Of a stretch of DNA of 38,389 bases, positions 22,817-36,256 are shown piece by piece. The translations under genes and the position numbers were made by a program. The number at the start of each line of letters is the position of its first letter. The stretch's first letter is position 1. Origin of the DNA: a virus; the IMG/VR virus record IMGVR_UViG_3300043540_000364, positions 1 through 38,389 of that record. One strand, 5' to 3'. Below the pieces are notes generated by a model, which ran no database searches, was not told the DNA's origin, and saw nothing but the letters and a program-made list of their open reading frames with translations.

Positions 22817-25800
22817 ATGCCTGATCTTCGCCAGATGGCCGATGAGTGGCAGTTGCCGGCGGCAGTGCCGGAAAAGCTGCCAGGGGAAACCCCGGGGGTG
22901 GCGCCCGCACCTGGGGCTCCCCCGGCAACCCAGGAAGAGGACCCTTGGAAATTGCCGGAATCTTCCACGGCTGGCACACCTGCACCTGCACCTGCTACAC
23001 CTACCGGATTACCGCCTCTCTCTCCGGAGCAGGAGGACGAGCATACCCGGATAATGCGCCTGGCGCAGAAGAAGATGAATGAGTCGGTGGAGGTTGAAAG
23101 AAGCCTTGGCGGGGAGATCGGGGCCAGCGTCGTGCGGGGCGCCATTGGGGTTGCCAAGCTGCCGCTGCAGATCGCCAATATTGTCGGCGGCGATGTGCTG
23201 GGAAGTAAGACGGTTAAGCGGGTTGCCGAGTCGGGGATTTACGGCCTGGAAAATCTGGCCGAATCTCCCACCTGGAAACCTTCTCAGGAGGCGGGCGGGG
23301 TGCCGATAGACCTGGATCGGATCATCCAGAGCCCCGGTCAGGTTGTCAACCAGATCGGTGCGCAGATAAAAAACCCCCGCTTTTGGGCGGCCCAGCTACC
23401 GGAAGGCGCCATGTCCATGGTGCCCTTCTTCGTGGGGTCCTGGGCCCCGAAAGCAATTGCCTATGCCGGGACCATGGGGAAGGCCCTGGAAGCTGCCAAC
23501 GCCGCCGGTGATATTGCCAAAGCGACGGCCATCGCTCAGAAGATCGAACGCCTTGGCACCATAGGCGGCTACGGCATGGCCATGGCGATGGAGGCGGGTC
23601 AGGGCGAAGAGAATGTTCGACATTTTGAGTTGAAGAACCCGGACAAGCCGATCCCCTGGGCTAACAAGGTCCTGGCCATTGCGGCAACAGGCGTGGTGGC
23701 TGGTGGCCTGGAAGCCTTTTCTCTCAGTCGTGTCTTCATGGGGAAATATGGCGGCGAGCTTACCGGCGAGGCCATGATCAAGGCTTTGATGGATGGTAAG
23801 GCTGGCAATCTCCTGGCCCGGAAGGTCATTGACAGCGTAGTGACCGAAGGACTCACCGAAGGCGCACAGAGCATCGTCGAAAATGCGGCCGCACGGTTGG
23901 GCTTCGATCCAGATCAGAAATTCACGGAAGGAGTGGTCGAAAGCATCCTGGTGGGCGCCGCCTTGGGTGGCCTGGGGGGTGGTTGGGAAGGGGCCAGAGC
24001 CCGCCAACGCGCCGCCGGGGAATTGGCGGATACACGGCATAGGAACCTGCTGAACTCTATCCAGATCATCGGCGACAGGATTCACCAGGCCAATCTCGAT
24101 TCCCAGGCTGAATATAAAGCCACCATGGGGGCAACTGAGGAGGCTCAGGCCCGGGGAGAGGTCTATGGCCAGATGCAGGGGCCGCAGGAAGTTCCCCAGG
24201 CGGCGCCCACCCCGCCCCTTGGCCCGGCTGCCCCGGGGACGCCGGTTCTCTATGGCGAGAATGGCCAGCCCATCCGTCCCACCGCGGAAGATTTTGAATC
24301 TGAACAGGCCCTTGTTCAGGCTCAAGCCGTGCCCCCCTGGAAGCGCACCGCTCTGGAAAAGCTCATTGTGGATCGTCATGCGAGAGAGCTTGAGGATTGG
24401 GGCCAGACCATCACAGAAAATGCCAGGGCCGGTTGGGATTCCACCCTACCCAATCCTTTTGGCCCGCCCCCGGCCACACCGGGAGGCCCGGTCATTACCC
24501 CGGCTTTTCCTGGCCGGGAGCCGATGGCGATTAACGCCGCCGATATTGCCGAAGTCGCAGCCCCCACCGGGGAACAGAGCCTTGTCAATCGTCTTCGCCG
24601 GGGAGTCAATAATGTCAACGAAACCGGCGAACCTGCGGCCTTACAGGATTTGACCGAACTGGCCCGGAACAACCAGGAGACGGTGAAGAACATCCTGGGG
24701 ATGCCTGAGCGTGAAGGTTTGCGGCCCATCGCCGAACGCCTGGATGATCTTTTCAGCCGGGTTGACGAGGGCGATCCTCTGGCAGCCAAGGAACTACACG
24801 AATTACTGAGTGCCCGCCTGGACAAGGTTCAAGACCTGACCCGGGGGGAGATTTTGCAGGTTCTTCCTGATAAACCGATCACCCCGGCAGGGGCCTACTT
24901 TGAAGGCATAGAAGACGAAACCAAGCCTCCCGAGGCGCCGCCCACGCCTGAGGGGGAGGCTCCACCTTCGGGGGTGCCGCCCACACCTCCGGAGACCCCG
25001 CCTGGCGTATCAGGTGCGCCAACACCTGAGTCAGGCACCCCAACCGCGACACCCCCGCCGTCGGCGGCTCCCGTTTCTGGCCAAGGCCCGTCGGCGGCAG
25101 GGGTCCCTCCTATGACTCCCAAGGTGCAAGATCTGGTGAATCAAATCCAGGCTTACGAGGGGGGAAGATACTCCCCTGAGTTCGTCAAGATGCAGCAGGA
25201 GTTGGGGCTTGAGGTTATCCCGGGGGTCCGGTTGCAGGACGCCGACGATGCCGGTTTGATGTTTACCCTCTTGCAGCAGGGGAAGATCACCCCGGAGGAA
25301 TGGGGCACCTTTGTTGAGGATTTGCGGGCGAGTAACAAAATCCGGGAGGCCCCGGCTGTTCCAACCCCGCCGGCTGAAACCCAAGCGCCGCCGGTTGTTG
25401 AAGAGACTCCCGTAGCTCCTGAACCCCAGGCCCAGGCCCCGACGGACGAGAATATCAACGCCTACAAGGAAGCCGTCAAGGGCCTGGTGGATGATCTGGA
25501 AATCGGGGATGAGGAGAAGGCCCGGTTCAAACAGGCCATTGACGAGCAAACGACCGTTAAGGGTGTGGACCAGGCTTACTTGGCTGGCCCCCCCGAGATT
25601 CCGCCTCCTCCTAAGGCACCAGGAGGAAGAGAGATACGGGTCCGAGGCCCCAGATATGACCTGGCCAAGGCCGTGGAGCGCGGGGATCGGGCCACCATCA
25701 TCAAAGCCTATGGGGGGTTCAATTCCCGGGCGCGGGTGATCAAGACCTTTGAGCCCGAGGAGCGCAGACTGCTCTTCCCCTTCATGCGCCGGGGAGCACA

Positions 25801-28800
25801 GGGCCCCGACTCCCTGCTTCAGGAGTTGCAGAACAACTACCCGCATCTTTTTGGGACCATCGAGTCGGACGATCAATTTCTGGCCATGATCATCAGCGGG
25901 GAAATGTATAAGAACACCGACATTGACGATTGGTTAAAACTTGAAGAGGAATACTACAATGACATTCGTGAGCAAGCCGGAGAAGAAGGCGTCGACGAAG
26001 CTGGGCTCGCCGAGATTGAGAGAGATGTTGAGGGAGAGGTTAATGCTGAAGAAAATGATCTCGCAGGCGAAACAGGCCCGGCAGAAGAAGCCTCTCAAGG
26101 CGCTGGGAATATCCCCGGGCTCACCCCGCCCAAGCCAAAAGCCCCGTCCGTAATCGACCAGAAGGTAGCCGAAACCCTCAAGGTCACTCCTGACCTGGAT
26201 GAGGGGAAAATCCGTCGCGTCTTCCGGGCCCTGCCCGATGCTTCCCCGACTGAGGCGGCGATGCTGGCCCAGGACGACGAGCTTTTCAATCAGGTGGCCA
26301 AGGGCAACTTTTCAGCCACGGAGAGGGAACAGCTTTACAAGAACCATAAGGAAGCGCAGGGGAATCTTCCGGGGATTGGTGGGGGAGGGTTGTTCGATCA
26401 GCCTGAGGCAGAAGTTAAGCCAAAGCCCGCGCCCAAGGTTCCTGGGGTCACGCCGTCAAGCCCTAAGACGCCAGAGCAAAAAGCTACGGCCCTCATCATG
26501 ACCATAAAGGACCCGGAAAGAAGGAAATGGGCCCAGGCTTATTTCGATTGGGTTAAGGGTGGTAGAGAGGGCACTTCTCCGCCACTTCCTAATTTTCTCA
26601 GCAGACAATGGGCAGAAGGTTTGCGGGGCAATATTGATGGACTTTTCCCGCCAGCCCAGGCGAAGCCAGTTTCGGAGGCCCCAAAGTTTGAGATCGGCGA
26701 CATGGTGCGGCCCAAGCCTGGGTCTGATATGCCAGGCTTCAAAAATAAGGACTCTGCCAAGGTCACGCATATCCAGGTGGATGCTGACGGGAAGCAGAAG
26801 TTGAGGATTGACGGTGGTGGACCCCATTGGAACGCCAGCGAGTTTGAAAAAGTCGAGGAAACGAAGGAACTTGACAAGGGGGAGGCCCCGAAGGAATTCA
26901 CCCAGGAGGACTACCGGAAGAAGGCCCTGGAAATCTTTGAGGGCATGAACGAAAGCCAGCGGACTGGCGTGCAGCATGGCCTTTTCCCTCATGACCTCAT
27001 GGAGGCTGCCAAGAAAGAAGGCTACACCGAAGGACAGAAGCTGTCCGTGGCCCTCATGTGGGCGGCCGAGAAAAAGGCCGCAGAGTCAGTTGTTGCAAAA
27101 TCTGCAACAACTGAAGAGGAAACGGTTACCGAGCAGGAGGCGACGGCCTCCAAGAAGTTAGCCGAACAGGTGTTGAAATGGCTCAAAGCTCCAACCGTCA
27201 TGGCCTCCCCCATTGTCGGATTAAGGCCCTTCACCAGCGCCCAACTCTTCAAATGGGCCGACGAGGCCTTTGGGGGAACCCAGGCCGAAGGGAAATACAC
27301 CCCCAAGGACGCTTACGACGCCATGGAATTGGGGGTGAACAAGTTCATCCAGGCCAATCCCACGCTCTTCGATCCCCACGCCAACGATCCGGCCAAGGTG
27401 GTGCAGCGTCTGGAAAAGCTCACCAGCATCCTTCCCACGCAAACCCGGCGCACCGGGGAATCTGAGGAGTTTCAGCAATTCTCGACGCCCCCGGCCCTGG
27501 CCTACCTGGTGAGTTGGGTAGGCAACGTGGGGCCGCATGAGGTGGTCCTGGAACCGAGCGCCGGGACCGGCAGCCTGGCCGTCTTCGCCAGCAACGCCGG
27601 AGCCCCGGAGATCATCGTCAATGAACTCAGCCCCAGGCGGGCCGAACTGGTCAAACAGTTGGGGTTTGATCGGGTCTTCACCGAGAACGCCGAGCAGCTT
27701 AACAACATCCTGCCCAAGGATGTGAAGCCCACTCTGGTGGTGATGAACCCGCCCTTTTCGGCCACCGCGGGCCGGCTTCAGGGGAAGCGGGTCATTCAGA
27801 CCGCAGCCGTCCACATCGAGCAGGCCCTGAAACGGTTGGAGGAGGGAGGCCGTCTGGTGGCCATCGTGGGCCGGGGCATGGCCTTCGGCAAGCCCGCTTT
27901 TACAGAGTGGTGGGGGGAAATCCGAAAAGAATATAAAATCCTTGCCAATGTCAGTGTAAGCGGCAAGAATTATACCAAATACGGGACAGCGTTTGATAAC
28001 CAGATCGTTGTCATAGACAAGTCAGGCCCGACTACTTCTCCTCCTGTCGTCGGCACGGTGGAGAAGCTCACGGACCTGGTTCCTCTCTTGGAGGGCGCAA
28101 AGAATGAGCGAATTCCTGCCACAGAACAACAGCCCGGTCAACCAGGCCGCGAAGAAGGCACTCCTCCAACTCAAGCTGAAGCCGGAACCGGACGACCTGT
28201 ATCTCCTCCAACTCATGGATTGGAGCCTGGAAAAGAAGAAGGTGGCGCTCCGGGCGCCGTGGGCGGTGGGGGAGGAGCAGAAGTCAATGTTCCTGAACAT
28301 CCGGGACAGCAAGAGGCTGGATCAGGTAATGCGGGTGTTCGAGGAACTCCCGTCCGACCCGGAGGAACCGTCGGAACTGGTTTACCTGGCGCAGGAGAAG
28401 GGGCCCCTGTCGGCGGTGAAACTGGCGCAGGAGGCGTGGGAACAACTGGCCGATTGGATGGACGTGAACGGTCGTTGGGAGAACAGCAAGATTCCGGGAG
28501 ACACGGACCTGTAACCGTCGAGGCCAAAGGAGAGGAAGAGGAGGAAAACAAAGGAAAATTCACCGATTCGGTTTTCGAGGATTACAAGCCGAAGAGGGTA
28601 AAGATTGCCGGGGCCAAGCCCCATCCCGCCCAACTTAAAGAGTCGGCAGCCATGGCGTCAGTCTCGCCTCCGGCTCCCACTTACACCCCGAACATTCCCC
28701 AAAAGACCATTAAGGAAGGCAAGCTCAGCGAGGCCCAGCTTGAGACGATTGTCTATGCTGGCCAGGCGCACTCCCAAATGCTGCCATCCGGCGAGCGCCG

Positions 28801-31800
28801 TGGGTTTGCCATCGGTGACGGCACCGGCTTAGGTAAGGGCCGCGAAATCTCGGGGATTTTCCAAGATAACTGGAACCAGGGCCGCAAGAAAGGCGTCTGG
28901 ATCAGTCAGAACCCGAGCCTTTTGAAAGATGCCAAACGGGATATGAAGGGGATCGACTGGAACCCTGAACTCGTCAAGAATCTCCCCAAGGCGAGTGAAC
29001 AGATCAAGGATAAAGAAGGGATCATGTTTCTCGGCTATGACACCCTTCGTTCTGGTCAATCCATCCGGGCCCGGGAAGGGGGCAGGCAGAGCCGTATCGA
29101 CCAATTGGTCAAATGGCTGGGAGAGGATTTCGACGGGGTAATCGCCTTTGACGAAGCCCACAACATGAACAACGCCAAAGATGAATCCGGCCAGGGAGGA
29201 TTCGGGCAGCAAAGGCGCCAAGCCTCTCAAAAAGCCCTGGCAGGCGTGGAACTCCAAAGGCGTCTGCCGAATGCCCGGGTGGTCTATGTGTCGGCGACCA
29301 TGGCCGAAGAACCCGACCACCTGGCCTTTGCGGACAGGTTGGGGTTGTGGGGGCCTGGGACCGCTTTTGCCAACCGGAACCGCTTCTTAAGCGAGATTTC
29401 TTCCGGCGGTGTGGCGTCGATGGAGGTAGTAGCCCGGGATTTGAAAGCCCTGGGGAAATACGTGGCCCGCAACCTCTCCTATGATGATGTGAAATATGAG
29501 CGGTTGACCCATGAATTAACCCCGGAACAGACCAAAATCTATAACGAACTGGCCCAGGCTTGGCAGATTATTTTCGCCAATATCAACAAGGCCCTGGATG
29601 ATACCGGGGCCGGTAGTTCGCCAACACAAAAACGGCAAGCCCTGGCCATGTTTTGGGGGTATAACCAAAGGTTTTTCAACCAGATCGTGACCTCCATGCA
29701 GATGCCCACAGTCTTGAAGTCCATGGAGAACGACCTGGCCAAGGGTTATTCCCCCATCGTGCAGTTGGTCAACACCTATGGCGAGGCGACAGATCGGGAG
29801 ATCGACAGGAAGGAAGAAGGCGCCGAATACGATGAACTGGACCTCTCCCCCCGGCAGTCGCTTATCCAGTATCTTGAACGGTCTTTCCCCACGCAGCAAT
29901 ATGAGGAATACACCGACGAGAACGGCGATACGAAAATGCGGCCGGTGGTCGATTCCAACGGTAACCCGGTGGAAAATGCTGAGGCTGTGGCTGCCAAGAA
30001 CCGGCTTATTGCCAGACTCGGGATGCTCAGGTTTCCTGATAATCCCCTGGACCAGATTATCAATAAGTTCGGCCCCAAGGTGGTGGCCGAGGTGACCGGG
30101 CGCAAGCAGCGAATTTACAATAATAAATTGGAGAAGCGGGGGAACGCTGCGGTTGCCAAGGACATTGAGGCTTATAAGAACGACGAAAAAACAATCCTGG
30201 TGTTCTCCGGGAAGGGTGACACCGGGGCCAGTTACCATGCCGACCTGGGCATAAAGAACCAGAGGTTGCGGCGCCATTACTGTGTGCAACCCGGTTGGCA
30301 GGCCAAGAAAGCCATGCAGGGCTTCGGGCGGTCCCACCGGACCAACCAGAAGCAGGCGCCAGAGTTCATCCTGACGGAAACCAATATCAAGGGGCAGAAA
30401 CGTTTTATCTCTGCCATCGCCCGGCGCCTGGACCAGCTTGGAGCCCTCACCAAGGGGCAGCGCCAGACCACGAGCACTGGCCTCCTCAAGGCCGAAGATA
30501 ATCTGTTGACCCCTTATGCGAAGAGGGCCATTGATCGGTTTATCGACGATCTGCGGGGCGGTCGCGTGGCCGGCCTGACTTCTCAGGAATATGAAGACCA
30601 GACGGGATGGAAATTGACCTATCAGAGTGGCGGTTCCGTCACAGTCAATTACCCGGATGCGAAGCAATTCTTCAACCGGCTCCTGGCCATGGAAATCGAG
30701 AAGCAGAACAACGCGTTCGACCATTTTGACAAGCTCCATAAAGAAATTCTCAGGCAAGAAGCCGAGCAAGGCACTCTCGATGTTGGCATAGAAACCATTC
30801 AGCCAGGGGCCTCCCCGGGGTGGTCTAATCCTGGGGGCCGCATTAAGAAGGTTAGCGAACAGTCCATTTACACCGAGCCTGACAGCAAGGCCGAAACCAA
30901 AGTGGTGGCCTTTGACCTCATCAATCCCACGCGGCCCCGGCAGTGGAATCAGGTGAATTTCCGGGGAACCTGGTTTTATACCAATAACCGGAGTGGTGCG
31001 CTTTGGGCGGTTGATTCATCGCCGAGAAATGTCAATGCCGAGATGAAATATCTGGCCGTCGGCCCGGGCGAGTTCTCCCGCCGATGGATCACCCAAAATG
31101 ATCTTGTCGATCAGCAGAAATGGACGAGAGTGCGGGACGCTATGGCCAAACCCCAATGGGATCAGGCCGTGGCCGCACTCCCGAAGGAAACCACTCACCG
31201 GATTCATCTGATCACCGGGACCCTTCTGCCTATTTGGGATCGTCTTAACGGGCCTACTATGGTTTTCCGTCTTCAAGATGATACCGGAAAGCGGTATTTA
31301 GGCCGGATGATCTTTGACGAAGACCTGGATGACACGCTGCGGTCTTTGGGGGCTACCAACCAAGCGCAATCTTCCCAGCAGGTCAAGAGCGCCGGGGATG
31401 TTTATGAAAGGGTTCTGGACAACAATTGGGTGGTGACCCTGGCCAACGGCTGGCAATTCAAGAGAGGCCTGGTTTCCGGGGAGCAGCGCATTGAACTTGT
31501 CGGCGTGGACCCCGATTACCTCACAGAGTTGGAAAACCTGGGGGTGATCCGGGAGACGCACGGCTACCAGACCAGGCTCTTCATTCCGATCATGAAAGGG
31601 ACTGATACCCGCTCCATCGACATTATCCATGAAATCATCAAGACCAAGCCGGTCATTGAGGCTGCCCCCCGGTATGCCGCTACTAACCGGCAGAGCATCA
31701 AACAGGGGATTCTTGGCACCGGGCCAATCGTCACCACCGAGGGCATCAAGTCCCGCCTGGGAGATAGCGTCAAGGTCGAAGAATTCGACGATGGCAGCGG

Positions 31801-34800
31801 CTGGGGCCTGACTCTTCCCAATGGGAAATACATAGCGATCCTCAAGAACCAGAAAATCCCGAAGCCGAACTTCGAGGACTTGAAGAAAACTTACAAGGAT
31901 ATTACCGAGGAGGGTTGGGAAAGAGGGACCGTAGGCGGGGAGTGGCGCCCCATGACCGTTGGCGGGGTGGTGGCCCTGGCCAAGGGCGTCGGCATGAAGC
32001 TGGTGGATCATGAGCTTTTCCATGCCGCCGCCGACCTGGTGCTGACCCAAAAGGAAATGGACCAGATCCTCAGGAAATACGGGGATTGGGAAGCGGCCGC
32101 GGAAGCCTATCAGGAATGGTCGCCCACGGAAACCGCCGTAGAACCTGATGCTAAGACCATTTTCCAGAAGATTCAGAGGTTCTTCCATCGGATCATGCAG
32201 ATCCTCAAGGCCGATCCTACCGAGGCGATCTTTAAGAGCATCAGGAGCGGCCAGATTTGGATGAGGACGGAAGTTGGCCCGGGAACCGTGGCGGATGCTT
32301 ACAGCTTCAAGGAAGTCACTTGGAGAAAAGAAAAAGACGGTTTTGGTAAACCGGATCAGCCCATTGACTATTACCTCAAAAAACTTGAGAAGTTAGGCTG
32401 TTCGGATCACCTGCTCTCCCTGGCCAAAGAACTGACCCAATCGAAGAAGCGTCAGAATTACGATATTTCTTCCGAAGACGGGATTCAACACCAAGTTCTC
32501 CGGTGGGATGGCCACAGCCTCTATTATCTCGACCAATGGGAAAAGGGCAGTTTCAACCGCCTCCAAATCGACCCGACGAACGGGTATGTAGATTGGGGAA
32601 ACGGGCAAGGTCCGAGTGCGCCCTCCACCAGGTATTCCTTCCGCACCGCCTCCCCGGCCGAGCAACGCCTGTCCATGTATGAAGAGAGGATGATGGCCCA
32701 GGAGCAGGAGAAAAAACCTCTCCTGCACAGGTTCAGAAATGCTCTGAGCACCGAGAACCGGGAAGCGGCCACGCAGACCTTTCGGTTCCTCTATGATGAA
32801 GTGGTGGACCGCATGGCGCCTTTCGAGAGGGCGGAAACCCGGGCGCTCAAGGCCGGGGGGATCATCCCCAAGGGTGAATCCGCCAATTACACCGTCGGCT
32901 TCTGGCGGGGCCAAGAGGGTTGGGTGGCCCAGGCTGTGATGAAGGCCGGGGTTTACCACGAAATCACCGAGCAGGGAAGATTCGTCGGCGACGCCAAGAA
33001 GGTGGGGGAGAGCCTCACGGCCAGGCTGGAACCTCTCCGGGAGTTGGCCAAGAAGCGGGGAGAGACACCGGATAAGGTCATAAATGACCTCTTCAATCGC
33101 TTCATGGTGGCCCAGCGTGATCTTGAGCTCGCGGGGGAAACCGGTGTCCGGGAATCCGGGGAGATCAAAGGGACCAGGCCCGATGAAAGCCGCCAGGCGT
33201 TGGCAGACCTCAAAGAGCTTTATGGGGAGGATTACGCCACCCTGGAAAAAGTCGCCGGCCGGCTGGAAGAGGACGGTAATTTCACCAAGGGCTCGGTCAG
33301 GGAATGGACCGACCAGGCAATCCTCCAACGGCTGCTCCAAGCCGGATTTCTGGACAGGCCCCGCTATGAGGAGATCAAGCACAAGAACCAGTATTATGTG
33401 CCCTTCAAGCGCCTCATGGATGAACTCGACGATTATGTGGACGCCTATTCCCAGGCCCTCGGTGTCAAAGGCCGGGTGGTCCAGAAGATCAAGGGTTCTG
33501 AGAAAGCCATCCTGAATCCCCTTGAGATGTTGATGCAGTTGGCAGCCAAGGCGAATTACGCCTACGCCAGAAACCGGATGTTGGACGGTGCGGCAAAGCT
33601 GGCCGAATGGGGCGATCCCGAGATTAAGGAGGTCCCGGCCAAGTTCATCCCCGTTGATGAAACCTTGAAACAGGAGGTTGATGTTGGTCTGCGGGGCCGG
33701 CTTATGGCCCTGGCCGACAGGCTGGGGATTCCCGTCAAGGTGGTCAAGTCTCTCCGGGGGCGCCGCCTTGGGGAGTTCAAATCCTGGCTGAGACAGGAAG
33801 TGCGGGACGGGAATATCACCATGGAAGAGGCCAAGGAGATCACCACGCGCTTTGCCACCACGGAAAGGGTCCTCTCCCATGAGCTTGGTCATGCCCTGGA
33901 TAAAAATTATGACCTGGTAAATCTCCTGATCACGCAGGGCACCCCGGCGATGAAAAGGGAGTTGCGGGCCATCGCTGATCAGAGGGCCGATCTCAATAGC
34001 TCCAAATCCTATAAACGGTATGTCAGGAAGAGAGAGGAACAGGTTGCCGAGTTCGTCTCCCGTTATATCGCTGACCGTGCGGTGGCCAAGGCTTTGGCCC
34101 CGGAAGCAGTGAAGACGTTCGAGAGGTTCTTACAGCAAAAGGGCCTGACGGACCTCAAGGATTTCAAGTGGTCCCACCAGATGGGGTCGATGGAGTTCCA
34201 GAACCGGGTATGGGCCCGGTCTCCTCTGCCTCCTGAACCTGGAACGGTGCCCTATTACCGGAATGGCTTTCAACGGTGGCTGAAACTCCCGCCGGATATG
34301 TTCAAGGCCACGCAGAACATGATGCCCGAAGACATGGGAATCTTTCTGCGAATCGCCAAGGCCCCGGCAGACCTTCTCCGGGCCGGTGCGGTGACCACCC
34401 CGGAATTCGGGATCGTCACCAACCCGGTTCGTGACATTATCCAGGCTTGGGTTTTTAGCAGGTTCGGGTTCAATCCCCTCAAGTGGTTCCGGGATTTGGG
34501 GTTGCTCCTCTCCAAAGACAAGAACACCGTGGAGATGCGCAACAAGGCCGAGGCCATGGGGGGATTCATGGCGACCCTGGCGCAGAGCTTCATCGAGCCC
34601 GAGAAGATCACCGCGGACGACATTACCGGCAAGCGCAAGGGCATAATCTACCAGGCCCATCCGGTCCAGGCGCTGCGCCATATCTCCGCGTACCTGGAAA
34701 ACATGACCAGGTTCTCCATTTACAAACAGGCCATCGAGAAGGGCCTGACTCCGGCTGAGGCCATTCACGAAATGCGGCGCACCACCCTGGACTTCCGGCG

Positions 34801-36256
34801 CTTCGGTGGTCACCCGGTAGTGCGTTACCTCAACATGATCATCCCGTTTTTCAATGCCGGGATTCAGGGCACGGATAAGTTGCTTTCCGAACTGGCTGGC
34901 CCGAACAAATGGGCCGTGATGCGGCGGTTAGCTCTCCTGGCGGCGGGCTCCGTCGGCCTCTGGATGCTGGCGCACAACGATGATCGCTATAAGGAATTGG
35001 AGAATTGGGAGCGTAACTATTTCTGGCACATCCCGGCTGGTGACCAGATGCTTCGTATCCCCAAGCCTTTCGAGGCCGGCATTCTCTTCGGCTCGGTCCC
35101 GGAAAGAATCCTGGATGCCCTGGTGGATAAGAATGTGGGAGGGATGCAATCGGCCTTGGGAGCTTCCTGGAAGGCGATGACGCCTGACTTCATCCCGGCC
35201 TTTGCCCGTCCTATCGTCGAGGGTTATGCCAACTATAACTGGTTCCTGGACCGCCCGATTGAAGATGTGAGCATCCAAAAGCTGCCGGTGGAACTCAGGT
35301 CGAAACCCTGGACTACCGAGCTGGCCAAGGCGGTCAGCCGGATCGTCGCTCCCGTGGTCAACCCGGTCTTTGAACTGAGCCCCATCAAGGTGGAGCAAAT
35401 TATCAGGACCACTACCGGGGGCTTGGGGTCCAATTATTTCCTCCCCGGGATCGATGTGCTCCTGCGCAAAGCCGGTGTCCTGGAAGATGTGCCGCAGCCC
35501 GCCCGAAACGCCATTGAGCTATGGGGGGTCAGGGCCCTCTTCACCAAGCCGCCCACCGGCTATCGGGCCAAGACGGTCAATGATTTCATGGAGAATTACC
35601 AGAAGATTCTTCAGGCAGACCAGGGGTGGAAGCTCCTCTGGAATTCCGGCCAGATGGACCAATTGGATGCCTTCCTGGAAAAACACCCTGAGGCCATGTT
35701 CGCCCGGGTTGCCCGCCAGGTCATGACCGAGATGGGGAATGTCAGGAAGCAGCGGTCAGCGATTTATGAAAGCAAGACCCTGGACCCCGACCAGAAGAGG
35801 ACCCGGCTCGACGCCCTGGATGAGAAGATCGTACACCTGGCGAAGATGGGCCAGGCTTTCATGGACCACGAAATCGCCGACAACCTCAAGATGCCTTCCC
35901 GGTTCAAGTCGGAGTTCGGGATCAGGAAGAGCATGGACCTGGACGGTTACTACAAGATGGTGGTGGAGAGCGTGGGAGACGCTTACACGGAAGTTAAGAA
36001 AGGCCTCCCCCGGTTCGCCAGCATGGACCCTGAACAGAGACAAAATTCCCTTACCAGGATTCTACGTCAGGCCCGGAAGGAATATATCCCCACCCTCAAG
36101 AAACCCGAAGATGTGTTGCAACCCTATAGGTTCAAAAGCCTTTTTGACACGCCCACGCGTCAGGAGAAGGCAAGGTATCAGGCTCTTTTTGGAGCCGGCA
36201 AGGTTAATGCTGGACTCGCTACCGGGTTCAGAATCAGAGAGGAGGAGGCCAGATGA
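22817..36256 (+). CDS. Giant polyvalent protein: N6-adenine methylase, strawberry-notch helicase, zincins
   Basis: This is a 4,479-residue protein; GTAAGGAG precedes ATG 22817. Domain order by residue: Pro-rich lead (1-75); hydrophobic, helical region with two Gly/Ala-rich segments (~85-400); Pro/Glu-rich linkers with small domains (~450-1480, including an acidic linker with an overlapping ORF); methylase (~1490-1750) with EPSAGTG at 1579-1585 and NPPF at 1644-1647; Gly/Pro linker (1763-1900); SF2 helicase (~1910-2620) with GDGTGLGKG (K2007), DEAH at 2112-2115, SAT at 2159-2161 and GRSHR at 2504-2508; HELFH at 3065-3069; HELGH at 3688-3692; LPD38-like region (~3812-4100). The helicase block QGFGRSHRTNQ with the following LGALTKG matches the strawberry-notch family. 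Methylase plus this helicase is the DarB arrangement of P1, a virion-packaged protection protein. Packaging and injection here are inferred. Confidence 0.93.
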   Translation: MPDLRQMADEWQLPAAVPEKLPGETPGVAPAPGAPPATQEEDPWKLPESSTAGTPAPAPATPTGLPPLSPEQEDEHTRIMRLAQKKMNESVEVERSLGGEIGASVVRGAIGVAKLPLQIANIVGGDVLGSKTVKRVAESGIYGLENLAESPTWKPSQEAGGVPIDLDRIIQSPGQVVNQIGAQIKNPRFWAAQLPEGAMSMVPFFVGSWAPKAIAYAGTMGKALEAANAAGDIAKATAIAQKIERLGTIGGYGMAMAMEAGQGEENVRHFELKNPDKPIPWANKVLAIAATGVVAGGLEAFSLSRVFMGKYGGELTGEAMIKALMDGKAGNLLARKVIDSVVTEGLTEGAQSIVENAAARLGFDPDQKFTEGVVESILVGAALGGLGGGWEGARARQRAAGELADTRHRNLLNSIQIIGDRIHQANLDSQAEYKATMGATEEAQARGEVYGQMQGPQEVPQAAPTPPLGPAAPGTPVLYGENGQPIRPTAEDFESEQALVQAQAVPPWKRTALEKLIVDRHARELEDWGQTITENARAGWDSTLPNPFGPPPATPGGPVITPAFPGREPMAINAADIAEVAAPTGEQSLVNRLRRGVNNVNETGEPAALQDLTELARNNQETVKNILGMPEREGLRPIAERLDDLFSRVDEGDPLAAKELHELLSARLDKVQDLTRGEILQVLPDKPITPAGAYFEGIEDETKPPEAPPTPEGEAPPSGVPPTPPETPPGVSGAPTPESGTPTATPPPSAAPVSGQGPSAAGVPPMTPKVQDLVNQIQAYEGGRYSPEFVKMQQELGLEVIPGVRLQDADDAGLMFTLLQQGKITPEEWGTFVEDLRASNKIREAPAVPTPPAETQAPPVVEETPVAPEPQAQAPTDENINAYKEAVKGLVDDLEIGDEEKARFKQAIDEQTTVKGVDQAYLAGPPEIPPPPKAPGGREIRVRGPRYDLAKAVERGDRATIIKAYGGFNSRARVIKTFEPEERRLLFPFMRRGAQGPDSLLQELQNNYPHLFGTIESDDQFLAMIISGEMYKNTDIDDWLKLEEEYYNDIREQAGEEGVDEAGLAEIERDVEGEVNAEENDLAGETGPAEEASQGAGNIPGLTPPKPKAPSVIDQKVAETLKVTPDLDEGKIRRVFRALPDASPTEAAMLAQDDELFNQVAKGNFSATEREQLYKNHKEAQGNLPGIGGGGLFDQPEAEVKPKPAPKVPGVTPSSPKTPEQKATALIMTIKDPERRKWAQAYFDWVKGGREGTSPPLPNFLSRQWAEGLRGNIDGLFPPAQAKPVSEAPKFEIGDMVRPKPGSDMPGFKNKDSAKVTHIQVDADGKQKLRIDGGGPHWNASEFEKVEETKELDKGEAPKEFTQEDYRKKALEIFEGMNESQRTGVQHGLFPHDLMEAAKKEGYTEGQKLSVALMWAAEKKAAESVVAKSATTEEETVTEQEATASKKLAEQVLKWLKAPTVMASPIVGLRPFTSAQLFKWADEAFGGTQAEGKYTPKDAYDAMELGVNKFIQANPTLFDPHANDPAKVVQRLEKLTSILPTQTRRTGESEEFQQFSTPPALAYLVSWVGNVGPHEVVLEPSAGTGSLAVFASNAGAPEIIVNELSPRRAELVKQLGFDRVFTENAEQLNNILPKDVKPTLVVMNPPFSATAGRLQGKRVIQTAAVHIEQALKRLEEGGRLVAIVGRGMAFGKPAFTEWWGEIRKEYKILANVSVSGKNYTKYGTAFDNQIVVIDKSGPTTSPPVVGTVEKLTDLVPLLEGAKNERIPATEQQPGQPGREEGTPPTQAEAGTGRPVSPPTHGLEPGKEEGGAPGAVGGGGGAEVNVPEHPGQQEAGSGNAGVRGTPVRPGGTVGTGLPGAGEGAPVGGETGAGGVGTTGRLDGRERSLGEQQDSGRHGPVTVEAKGEEEEENKGKFTDSVFEDYKPKRVKIAGAKPHPAQLKESAAMASVSPPAPTYTPNIPQKTIKEGKLSEAQLETIVYAGQAHSQMLPSGERRGFAIGDGTGLGKGREISGIFQDNWNQGRKKGVWISQNPSLLKDAKRDMKGIDWNPELVKNLPKASEQIKDKEGIMFLGYDTLRSGQSIRAREGGRQSRIDQLVKWLGEDFDGVIAFDEAHNMNNAKDESGQGGFGQQRRQASQKALAGVELQRRLPNARVVYVSATMAEEPDHLAFADRLGLWGPGTAFANRNRFLSEISSGGVASMEVVARDLKALGKYVARNLSYDDVKYERLTHELTPEQTKIYNELAQAWQIIFANINKALDDTGAGSSPTQKRQALAMFWGYNQRFFNQIVTSMQMPTVLKSMENDLAKGYSPIVQLVNTYGEATDREIDRKEEGAEYDELDLSPRQSLIQYLERSFPTQQYEEYTDENGDTKMRPVVDSNGNPVENAEAVAAKNRLIARLGMLRFPDNPLDQIINKFGPKVVAEVTGRKQRIYNNKLEKRGNAAVAKDIEAYKNDEKTILVFSGKGDTGASYHADLGIKNQRLRRHYCVQPGWQAKKAMQGFGRSHRTNQKQAPEFILTETNIKGQKRFISAIARRLDQLGALTKGQRQTTSTGLLKAEDNLLTPYAKRAIDRFIDDLRGGRVAGLTSQEYEDQTGWKLTYQSGGSVTVNYPDAKQFFNRLLAMEIEKQNNAFDHFDKLHKEILRQEAEQGTLDVGIETIQPGASPGWSNPGGRIKKVSEQSIYTEPDSKAETKVVAFDLINPTRPRQWNQVNFRGTWFYTNNRSGALWAVDSSPRNVNAEMKYLAVGPGEFSRRWITQNDLVDQQKWTRVRDAMAKPQWDQAVAALPKETTHRIHLITGTLLPIWDRLNGPTMVFRLQDDTGKRYLGRMIFDEDLDDTLRSLGATNQAQSSQQVKSAGDVYERVLDNNWVVTLANGWQFKRGLVSGEQRIELVGVDPDYLTELENLGVIRETHGYQTRLFIPIMKGTDTRSIDIIHEIIKTKPVIEAAPRYAATNRQSIKQGILGTGPIVTTEGIKSRLGDSVKVEEFDDGSGWGLTLPNGKYIAILKNQKIPKPNFEDLKKTYKDITEEGWERGTVGGEWRPMTVGGVVALAKGVGMKLVDHELFHAAADLVLTQKEMDQILRKYGDWEAAAEAYQEWSPTETAVEPDAKTIFQKIQRFFHRIMQILKADPTEAIFKSIRSGQIWMRTEVGPGTVADAYSFKEVTWRKEKDGFGKPDQPIDYYLKKLEKLGCSDHLLSLAKELTQSKKRQNYDISSEDGIQHQVLRWDGHSLYYLDQWEKGSFNRLQIDPTNGYVDWGNGQGPSAPSTRYSFRTASPAEQRLSMYEERMMAQEQEKKPLLHRFRNALSTENREAATQTFRFLYDEVVDRMAPFERAETRALKAGGIIPKGESANYTVGFWRGQEGWVAQAVMKAGVYHEITEQGRFVGDAKKVGESLTARLEPLRELAKKRGETPDKVINDLFNRFMVAQRDLELAGETGVRESGEIKGTRPDESRQALADLKELYGEDYATLEKVAGRLEEDGNFTKGSVREWTDQAILQRLLQAGFLDRPRYEEIKHKNQYYVPFKRLMDELDDYVDAYSQALGVKGRVVQKIKGSEKAILNPLEMLMQLAAKANYAYARNRMLDGAAKLAEWGDPEIKEVPAKFIPVDETLKQEVDVGLRGRLMALADRLGIPVKVVKSLRGRRLGEFKSWLRQEVRDGNITMEEAKEITTRFATTERVLSHELGHALDKNYDLVNLLITQGTPAMKRELRAIADQRADLNSSKSYKRYVRKREEQVAEFVSRYIADRAVAKALAPEAVKTFERFLQQKGLTDLKDFKWSHQMGSMEFQNRVWARSPLPPEPGTVPYYRNGFQRWLKLPPDMFKATQNMMPEDMGIFLRIAKAPADLLRAGAVTTPEFGIVTNPVRDIIQAWVFSRFGFNPLKWFRDLGLLLSKDKNTVEMRNKAEAMGGFMATLAQSFIEPEKITADDITGKRKGIIYQAHPVQALRHISAYLENMTRFSIYKQAIEKGLTPAEAIHEMRRTTLDFRRFGGHPVVRYLNMIIPFFNAGIQGTDKLLSELAGPNKWAVMRRLALLAAGSVGLWMLAHNDDRYKELENWERNYFWHIPAGDQMLRIPKPFEAGILFGSVPERILDALVDKNVGGMQSALGASWKAMTPDFIPAFARPIVEGYANYNWFLDRPIEDVSIQKLPVELRSKPWTTELAKAVSRIVAPVVNPVFELSPIKVEQIIRTTTGGLGSNYFLPGIDVLLRKAGVLEDVPQPARNAIELWGVRALFTKPPTGYRAKTVNDFMENYQKILQADQGWKLLWNSGQMDQLDAFLEKHPEAMFARVARQVMTEMGNVRKQRSAIYESKTLDPDQKRTRLDALDEKIVHLAKMGQAFMDHEIADNLKMPSRFKSEFGIRKSMDLDGYYKMVVESVGDAYTEVKKGLPRFASMDPEQRQNSLTRILRQARKEYIPTLKKPEDVLQPYRFKSLFDTPTRQEKARYQALFGAGKVNAGLATGFRIREEEAR
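25959..26153 (+). CDS. Candidate nested ORF in the giant gene, small basic protein
   Basis: This is a 64-residue ORF in the +1 frame, inside an acidic linker of the giant protein. GAGGA (25946-25950) lies eight bases before ATG 25959. By hand count, 51 of 64 third positions are G or C in this frame, against 31 of 64 for the giant frame over the same bases. The product is very basic and Met/Lys/Arg-rich, so it could bind nucleic acid. Caution: an acidic GAA/GAG-rich frame read one base over gives Lys/Arg codons automatically, so the evidence is weaker than for 28104-28514. Not proven to be translated. Confidence 0.3.
   Translation: MTFVSKPEKKASTKLGSPRLREMLRERLMLKKMISQAKQARQKKPLKALGISPGSPRPSQKPRP
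27086..27114. repeat. Perfect inverted repeat, copy 2 of a dispersed element, inside the giant gene
   Basis: TCAGTTGTTGCA (27086-27097) and TGCAACAACTGA (27103-27114) are perfect 12-base arms around AAATC. The same element, one base different in the right arm, follows the capsid gene at 7166-7192. Here it encodes residues ~1424-1433 within a linker (VVAKSATT), where an insertion would be tolerated. A mobile palindromic element or a shared protein-binding or RNA-processing site would explain the two contexts. Confidence 0.8.
28104..28514 (+). CDS. Nested gene overprinted in the giant gene (136 aa, unknown)
   Basis: This is a complete 136-residue ORF in the +1 frame relative to the giant gene, between its methylase and helicase domains. 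GGAGGG (28090-28095) lies eight bases before ATG 28104. By hand count, 112 of 136 third positions are G or C in this frame, but only 45 of 136 in the giant frame over the same bases; elsewhere the giant frame has GC-rich third positions. The protein has a normal composition: a helical soluble product with LKPEPDDLYLLQLMDWSLE, RDSKRLDQVMRVFEEL and LAQEAWEQLADWMD. The giant frame here is a Gly/Pro/Glu-rich linker, as expected of a passively read strand. There is no membrane segment, motif or known family. A double frameshift artefact is less likely because this frame has its own start, ribosome site and stop. Confidence 0.72.
   Translation: MSEFLPQNNSPVNQAAKKALLQLKLKPEPDDLYLLQLMDWSLEKKKVALRAPWAVGEEQKSMFLNIRDSKRLDQVMRVFEELPSDPEEPSELVYLAQEKGPLSAVKLAQEAWEQLADWMDVNGRWENSKIPGDTDL

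Follow-up and report, generated by a model that had tools for sequence, protein, structure and literature searches.

A gene lying wholly within another reading frame of its functional partner is familiar from lambda Rz/Rz1 and other nested phage pairs. The putative gene described below resembles Rz/Rz1 in being completely nested in another frame of a partner gene, but it has no lysis function, belongs to another family and lies on an interdomain linker. A second comparison is offered by the conjugative plasmid RP4, in which the acidic protein TraH is encoded in another frame within traI and stabilises the relaxosome (PMC7314908). As with TraH of RP4 and other IncP plasmids, the predicted product is a small acidic protein (pI 4.7, net charge -7) encoded in another frame inside a gene for a large DNA-transfer enzyme, and the test for a TraH-like acidic protein nested in the other frame of a transfer enzyme gene is met, although only as an analogy: the host gene of TraH encodes a relaxase, whereas the host here encodes a methylase-helicase fusion, and the function of its small protein can only be inferred.

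The closest described relatives of the host gene are the polyvalent proteins with a DarB-type methylase-helicase dyad, described by Iyer et al. 2017 (PMC5512222), who named a strawberry-notch example from Methylomonas; the words "overlap" and "linker" are absent from the main text of that paper. In phage P1, Ulx aids the localisation of DarB to the head (PMC9024508). Ulx is likewise a small protein (146 aa) encoded beside a methylase-helicase antirestriction giant, but ulx stands on its own, 3′ of darB, and no nested ORF with a coding signature was found in darB itself. By HMM comparison, the small protein family is homologous to neither Ulx (E 0.8) nor DdrA of P1. The DarB-like podovirus JC1 is reported to have its giant protein in the virion but no identified homologs of the Dar accessory proteins (PMC9144972). 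No published description of nested genes of the kind considered here was found in the open-access literature, subscription journals and preprints being outside the scope of the search.

The giant gene and the reading frame nested within it

The window, by which is meant the whole stretch of 38,389 nucleotides that was analysed (IMG/VR virus record IMGVR_UViG_3300043540_000364), contains a giant polyvalent gene of 4479 codons on the plus strand (22817..36256), as are all features listed below. Upstream of it are genes for a terminase, a head-tail adaptor, a major head protein and further virion components, which indicates that the window is a fragment of a podovirus-like tailed phage. The giant protein possesses an N6-adenine DNA methylase domain (27398..28097) that matches DNA methylase PHROGs and has the motif NPPF at codon 1644 (approximately position 27746), an AAA_34 or strawberry-notch P-loop NTPase domain (28619..29548, E 1e-112), a Helicase_C_4 or strawberry-notch C-terminal domain (30041..30796, E 8e-73) and LPD38, a large polyvalent protein associated domain (34979..35455, E 1e-32). 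With NPPF, AAA_34, Helicase_C_4 and LPD38 it meets the membership test for a DarB-like methylase-helicase polyvalent protein and belongs to the class with the DarB-type dyad. On methanotroph plasmids (L003 and L004, including those of Methylotuvimicrobium and Methylomonas LL1), the giant gene is located close after the genes for traI, the coupling protein, traF and topoisomerase III. This location is the slot that traC/traD occupy in RP4.

Between the methylase and the helicase, in the +1 frame relative to the giant gene, is an ORF of 136 codons that begins with ATG and ends with TAA (28104..28514). Its putative ribosome-binding site for internal initiation, GGAGGG (28090..28095), is located eight bases 5′ of the ATG and doubles as part of the giant-frame codons for Leu-Glu-Gly; the methylase end of the giant is an LLEG..NE stretch, and the DNA encoding this stretch carries both the ribosome site and the start codon of the small gene. 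Over the small ORF, the giant frame is a stop-free linker of about 137 codons (28103..28514), rich in Gly, Pro and Glu.

The earlier note, made from the DNA of the window alone, had given the coordinates, start, stop, ribosome site and +1 offset of this ORF, all of which proved exact. Its hand counts of GC-ending codons, 112 of 136 in the +1 frame and 45 of 136 in the giant frame over the same interval, were reproduced to the codon, the latter comparing with a GC-ending fraction of 0.695 in the remainder of the giant gene, and its observation that the giant frame turns Gly/Pro/Glu-rich precisely at 28104-28514, with methylase on one side and helicase on the other, was confirmed. Other nested ORFs in the giant gene of the window reach 162 aa and one of them has a ribosome-site-like sequence; among those of at least 70 codons, none besides 28104-28514 has a clear coding GC signature.

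All of the evidence is sequence-based, with no transcript, ribosome-profiling or peptide data, and on that footing 28104-28514 is very probably a genuine gene for a protein, overprinted on the methylase-helicase linker in the +1 frame. Most likely, ribosomes would start internally on the mRNA of the giant, at the conserved GGAGG...ATG of the methylase end, and produce a separate acidic, helical protein of approximately 120 aa, and other ribosomes would read through the linker to produce the giant protein; selection would act on the sequence of the small protein, and the linker of the giant would mainly be held stop-free. The ATG of the small gene can be removed by a T-to-C mutation that is silent in the giant frame (AAT to AAC, both encoding Asn), so that a clean test is possible.

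Conservation and constraint of the small frame

The small ORF of the window, used alone as a tblastn query, has no match in phages, plasmids or viral contigs, and relatives were therefore sought through the methylase and the helicase. The methylase-linker-helicase stretch matches plasmids at 50-57% identity, and four gammaproteobacterial plasmids, carried by Methylomonas, Methylotuvimicrobium and Thioflavicoccus, have in the corresponding position a +1 ORF of 114-117 codons; compared in the small frame with the ORF of Methylomonas LL1, the other two methanotroph ORFs are 66-69% identical and that of Thioflavicoccus is 50% identical. When ORFs from plasmids, viral-contig scans and a genome scan were gathered, 112 distinct +1 ORFs (window included) encoding 87-145 aa were found, all in the corresponding position; they come from phage contigs, plasmids and bacterial genomes. 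The start codon is ATG in 108 of them and GTG in four, and in nearly all its distance from the methylase end is exactly conserved. A ribosome-site-like motif, conserved across relatives at positions -14 to -9, precedes 96 of the 112 small ORFs, versus 7.7% at the same phase upstream; 96 is an upper estimate, as the starts were picked partly by the ribosome-site criterion. In every one of the 112 sequences, it is the small frame that has the lowest GC content at codon position 2 and that carries the codon-position GC signature.

The pattern of substitutions is that of a frame under selection of its own. Across 109 pairs of related ORFs, substitutions at positions 1, 2 and 3 of the small frame number 3659, 2653 and 5517, respectively, and the small proteins are more alike than the giant-frame translations, the two identities being equal after rounding only in near-identical pairs. 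Since related sequences are not fully independent, rates were computed from seven disjoint close pairs: substitutions that change only the small protein occur at 0.036 per site and those that change both proteins (NN) at 0.041 per site, versus 0.134 per site for those that change only the giant (p = 4e-10), small-only changes being four times rarer than giant-only changes. The low rate of changes to the small protein and the high rate of giant-only changes imply that the linker of the giant is nearly neutral with respect to its amino acids. The marks of an overprinted gene that sequence can show are all present: a complete ORF in another frame within a longer gene, a start and ORF conserved in position among relatives (the 112 ORFs) and purifying selection specific to the nested frame. 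The earlier note had suggested a separate gene hidden in the linker, for which the recurrence of the +1 ORF, similarly placed in each of 112 distinct sequences, is strong support, and it had named two results that would refute the suggestion; neither materialised, as no relative with an ordinary long linker has a broken +1 frame (L134 and L149, described below, come nearest to being exceptions) and substitutions conserve the small frame instead of the giant frame.

The composition of the linkers correlates at r = 0.968 with the giant-frame reading of synonymously shuffled small genes, versus r = 0.635 with the methylase. In composition, the linker is thus what the small gene would cast as a shadow in the giant frame, but no giant-frame stop is seen in the linkers where approximately 178 would be expected, which indicates that both frames are kept open. 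Judged by these correlations and counts, the richness of the linker in Gly and Pro mostly reflects the small gene, and the linker is free of stops so that the giant can be made. In one contig of a Chromatiaceae metagenome-assembled genome (L101, 3.4 kb), the small ORF is intact and the giant gene undergoes a change of frame in the methylase and meets a stop within the overlap; these breaks of the giant frame are due to either decay or assembly error.

The openness of the +1 frame is weak as evidence of a gene because codons for Gly, Pro, Ser, Thr and Glu lack T at position 2. In synonymous shuffles that kept the residues of the giant, the +1 frame of the window was open in 3.9% of trials, and over 86 sequences the chance that the residues of the giant leave the +1 frame open has a mean of 0.17 and is as high as 1.0. 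If the ORF were merely an artefact of composition, left open by chance and never translated, its openness at a single locus would not be a rare event, and further long nested ORFs do occur in the giant gene; however, one would not then expect constraint to fall on the small frame instead of the giant frame, which is what the rates by site class indicate, nor would one expect conservation of the start and ribosome site, a coding GC signature in 112 of 112 sequences or a confidently predicted fold, and an artefact is scarcely credible. The comparative evidence is decisive in favour of a gene, as openness alone would not be. It might also be supposed that programmed +1 frameshifting at the methylase end yields a methylase-small protein fusion that ends before the helicase, with no separate protein made. 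The small frame does run directly on from the C-terminus of the methylase, and such a fusion would usefully truncate the giant, but almost every locus has its ATG in a constant position, preceded at a suitable spacing by a ribosome site, and +1 stops are often close upstream (the open frame is 113-132 codons for ORFs of 111-114 codons), leaving little room to shift; frameshifting is very improbable. Both readings were set aside on account of the constraint on the small frame and the conserved ATG and ribosome site, and an overprinted gene with its own internal start is the reading adopted below.

Distribution, origin and predicted product of the small gene

Of 50 virus records searched with a profile built from 65 members, 45 yielded exactly one copy of the small gene, in every case within the linker, and none yielded a copy standing alone; matches were also found in 15 of 201 Methylomonadaceae genomes, one copy in each. 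Seven of the 112 small ORFs do not match the family profile. The gene is not recorded in the annotations of the records that were viewed, the gene tables of the plasmids being incomplete. Loci whose linker is short or has been replaced lack the small ORF, as in Azospirillum, Nostoc-type and Phaeobacter plasmids and in L077, L179 and L149. As L149 has both methylase and helicase, with another insert filling its linker, the small ORF is not universally needed. A truncated +1 remnant of the small gene (L134:3689-3845, MTEEMLPQNKRPLNQAAKMAMEKL...) is found in a record without a strawberry-notch helicase. Two other records (L167 and L195) keep the small ORF though they show no strawberry-notch helicase, possibly because they are fragments, and this suggests that the small ORF travels with the methylase end. 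Where the linker is 900-1285 bases long (L139, L142, L151 and L169), the small ORF is still located at the methylase end, with the extra sequence before the helicase.

In some closely related loci the small gene has little resemblance to its counterpart. The methylases of L044/L176, L074/L180 and L079/L161 are 73-83% identical and the small ORFs only 20-29% identical (83% and 28%, respectively, for L044/L176), and the similarity of the DNA falls soon after the ATG and resumes past the stop, as if the small gene had been exchanged as a cassette or had changed very fast; these pairs do not decide between the two.

It is possible, at somewhat less than an even chance, that the small gene is ancestral, having once stood between separate methylase and helicase genes and been read through, so that the linker arose de novo. 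This scenario concerns origin only and is compatible with an overprinted gene. Codon usage in the flanking sequence is matched better by the small frame (0.354) than by the overlapping giant frame (0.078), the small frame being the closer one in 81 of 112 loci (p = 2e-9), the linker of the giant looks like a shadow, and the small protein is predicted to fold whereas the linker is of low complexity. On the other hand, fused relatives without the ORF exist (L006-L009, L077 and L179), no locus with three separate genes was found among the relatives, the tree is unrooted, and de novo genes that are old also acquire genome-like codon usage (PMC8227390). Likeness of codon usage to the flanks commonly marks the older frame and suggests here that greater age or stronger constraint belongs to the small frame, with the order of events left open by the unrooted tree. 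The alternative raised in the earlier note, that the giant was formed by reading through a former intergenic gene, remains possible: codon usage leans toward an older small frame, but the three-gene relative is missing.

Structure models were computed from alignments of the window and locus sequences, in one run with the sequences from plasmid records left out. The model of the 136-aa protein of the window is all helical (pLDDT 87.9, pTM 0.83), and a Methylomonas-type protein was modelled with similar scores (pLDDT 87.9, pTM 0.82); the two proteins are less than 20% identical and their helices are in like order in both models, the alignments having some sequences in common. On the strength of these predictions, the small protein looks like a folded helical protein. 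Searches with the models found no counterpart by Foldseek in PDB or BFVD (best E above 1) or by VIA-align (best Z 2.4), and hmmsearch of PDB sequences gave E 0.09 or worse. When 4 to 68 members of the small family were scanned against Pfam and PHROGs, and five against NCBIfam, no shared family emerged, only single matches at chance level; in a broad alignment of 65 members, no stretch is conserved enough for a contig scan. Fold and family give no hint of function.

Because the small protein is nested, acidic, present in one copy and tied to the methylase end, it may tentatively be inferred to be a partner of the methylase/helicase of the giant, by analogy with the systems introduced above and with less confidence than an even chance would deserve. 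Such a partner, made in step with the giant, might stabilise or regulate the giant module, or might help to load the giant into the virion or transfer apparatus. The median pI of 4.8 among the small proteins, the single copy in 45 of 50 virus records and the persistence without helicase in L167 and L195 support this inference. The small protein could instead act in counter-defence on its own account, perhaps as a DNA mimic, and have nothing but its locus in common with the giant; its acidity, its fast evolution and its replacement or unrecognisable divergence in some close relatives speak for this. However, the small gene is always beside the methylase and never alone in the 50 records, overlapping Gly codons impose part of the acidity, and no likeness to solved folds was found; independence is unlikely. 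This alternative bears on function only, and a partner of the giant is the function preferred here.

Nested ORFs in other DarB-like giants

In six cultured phages, the DarB-like giant has a different +1 ORF of 120-131 aa, referred to here as family 2, on a linker of low complexity that immediately precedes the helicase: Serratia phage Parlo (L197:186-575), Klebsiella phage ZX1 (L199:231-626), Pseudomonas phage Skulduggery (L200:180-569), Ruegeria phage 45A6 (L201:168-557), Vibrio D274 (L202:213-575) and, by tblastn, Vibrio 1.232.O. It has no detectable sequence similarity to the family of the window (family 1), and the helicase precedes the methylase in the giants of family 2, but it resembles family 1 in being a +1 ORF on a low-complexity DarB-like linker with a coding GC signature (five of five examined) and with the small frame better conserved, in this case in every pair. 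In all six phages, the only annotation over the match is that of the giant. The occurrence of family 2 in six cultured phages implies that overprinting of such linkers recurs.

Some isolated ORFs were also noted. Bacteroides phage BS-TP4 has a +1 ORF of 119 aa between methylase and helicase (L198:3228-3587) with a coding GC signature (0.53/0.33/0.66); it is in the same place as that of the window, is unlike it in sequence, and has no relatives in the phage collection. The giant gene of Burkholderia phage JC1 (L205) has, at codons 1371-1506, a single candidate +1 ORF with coding-like GC on a Gly/Asp/Arg-rich linker. The giant gene of Serratia phage Parlo (L203) has a second nested +1 ORF of 81 aa at codons 787-868, also a single candidate, with strongly coding-like GC (0.54/0.28/0.77).

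Whether low-complexity linkers of DarB-like giants have repeatedly acquired overprinted small genes that encode folded partner proteins, comprising family 1, family 2 and the single candidates of BS-TP4, JC1 and the second site of Parlo, is evenly balanced on present evidence. If they have, the nested proteins would be the accessory proteins that DarB-like podoviruses are said to lack, and the odd Gly/Pro/Ala-rich composition of the linkers would be partly a by-product of a second gene. The small gene would add a widespread protein family that is apparently hidden by construction from standard annotation, and would offer a concrete reason for the low-complexity linkers of giant polyvalent proteins as well as candidates for the accessory proteins of P1-type antirestriction, which have been reported as unidentified in DarB-like podoviruses (PMC9144972).
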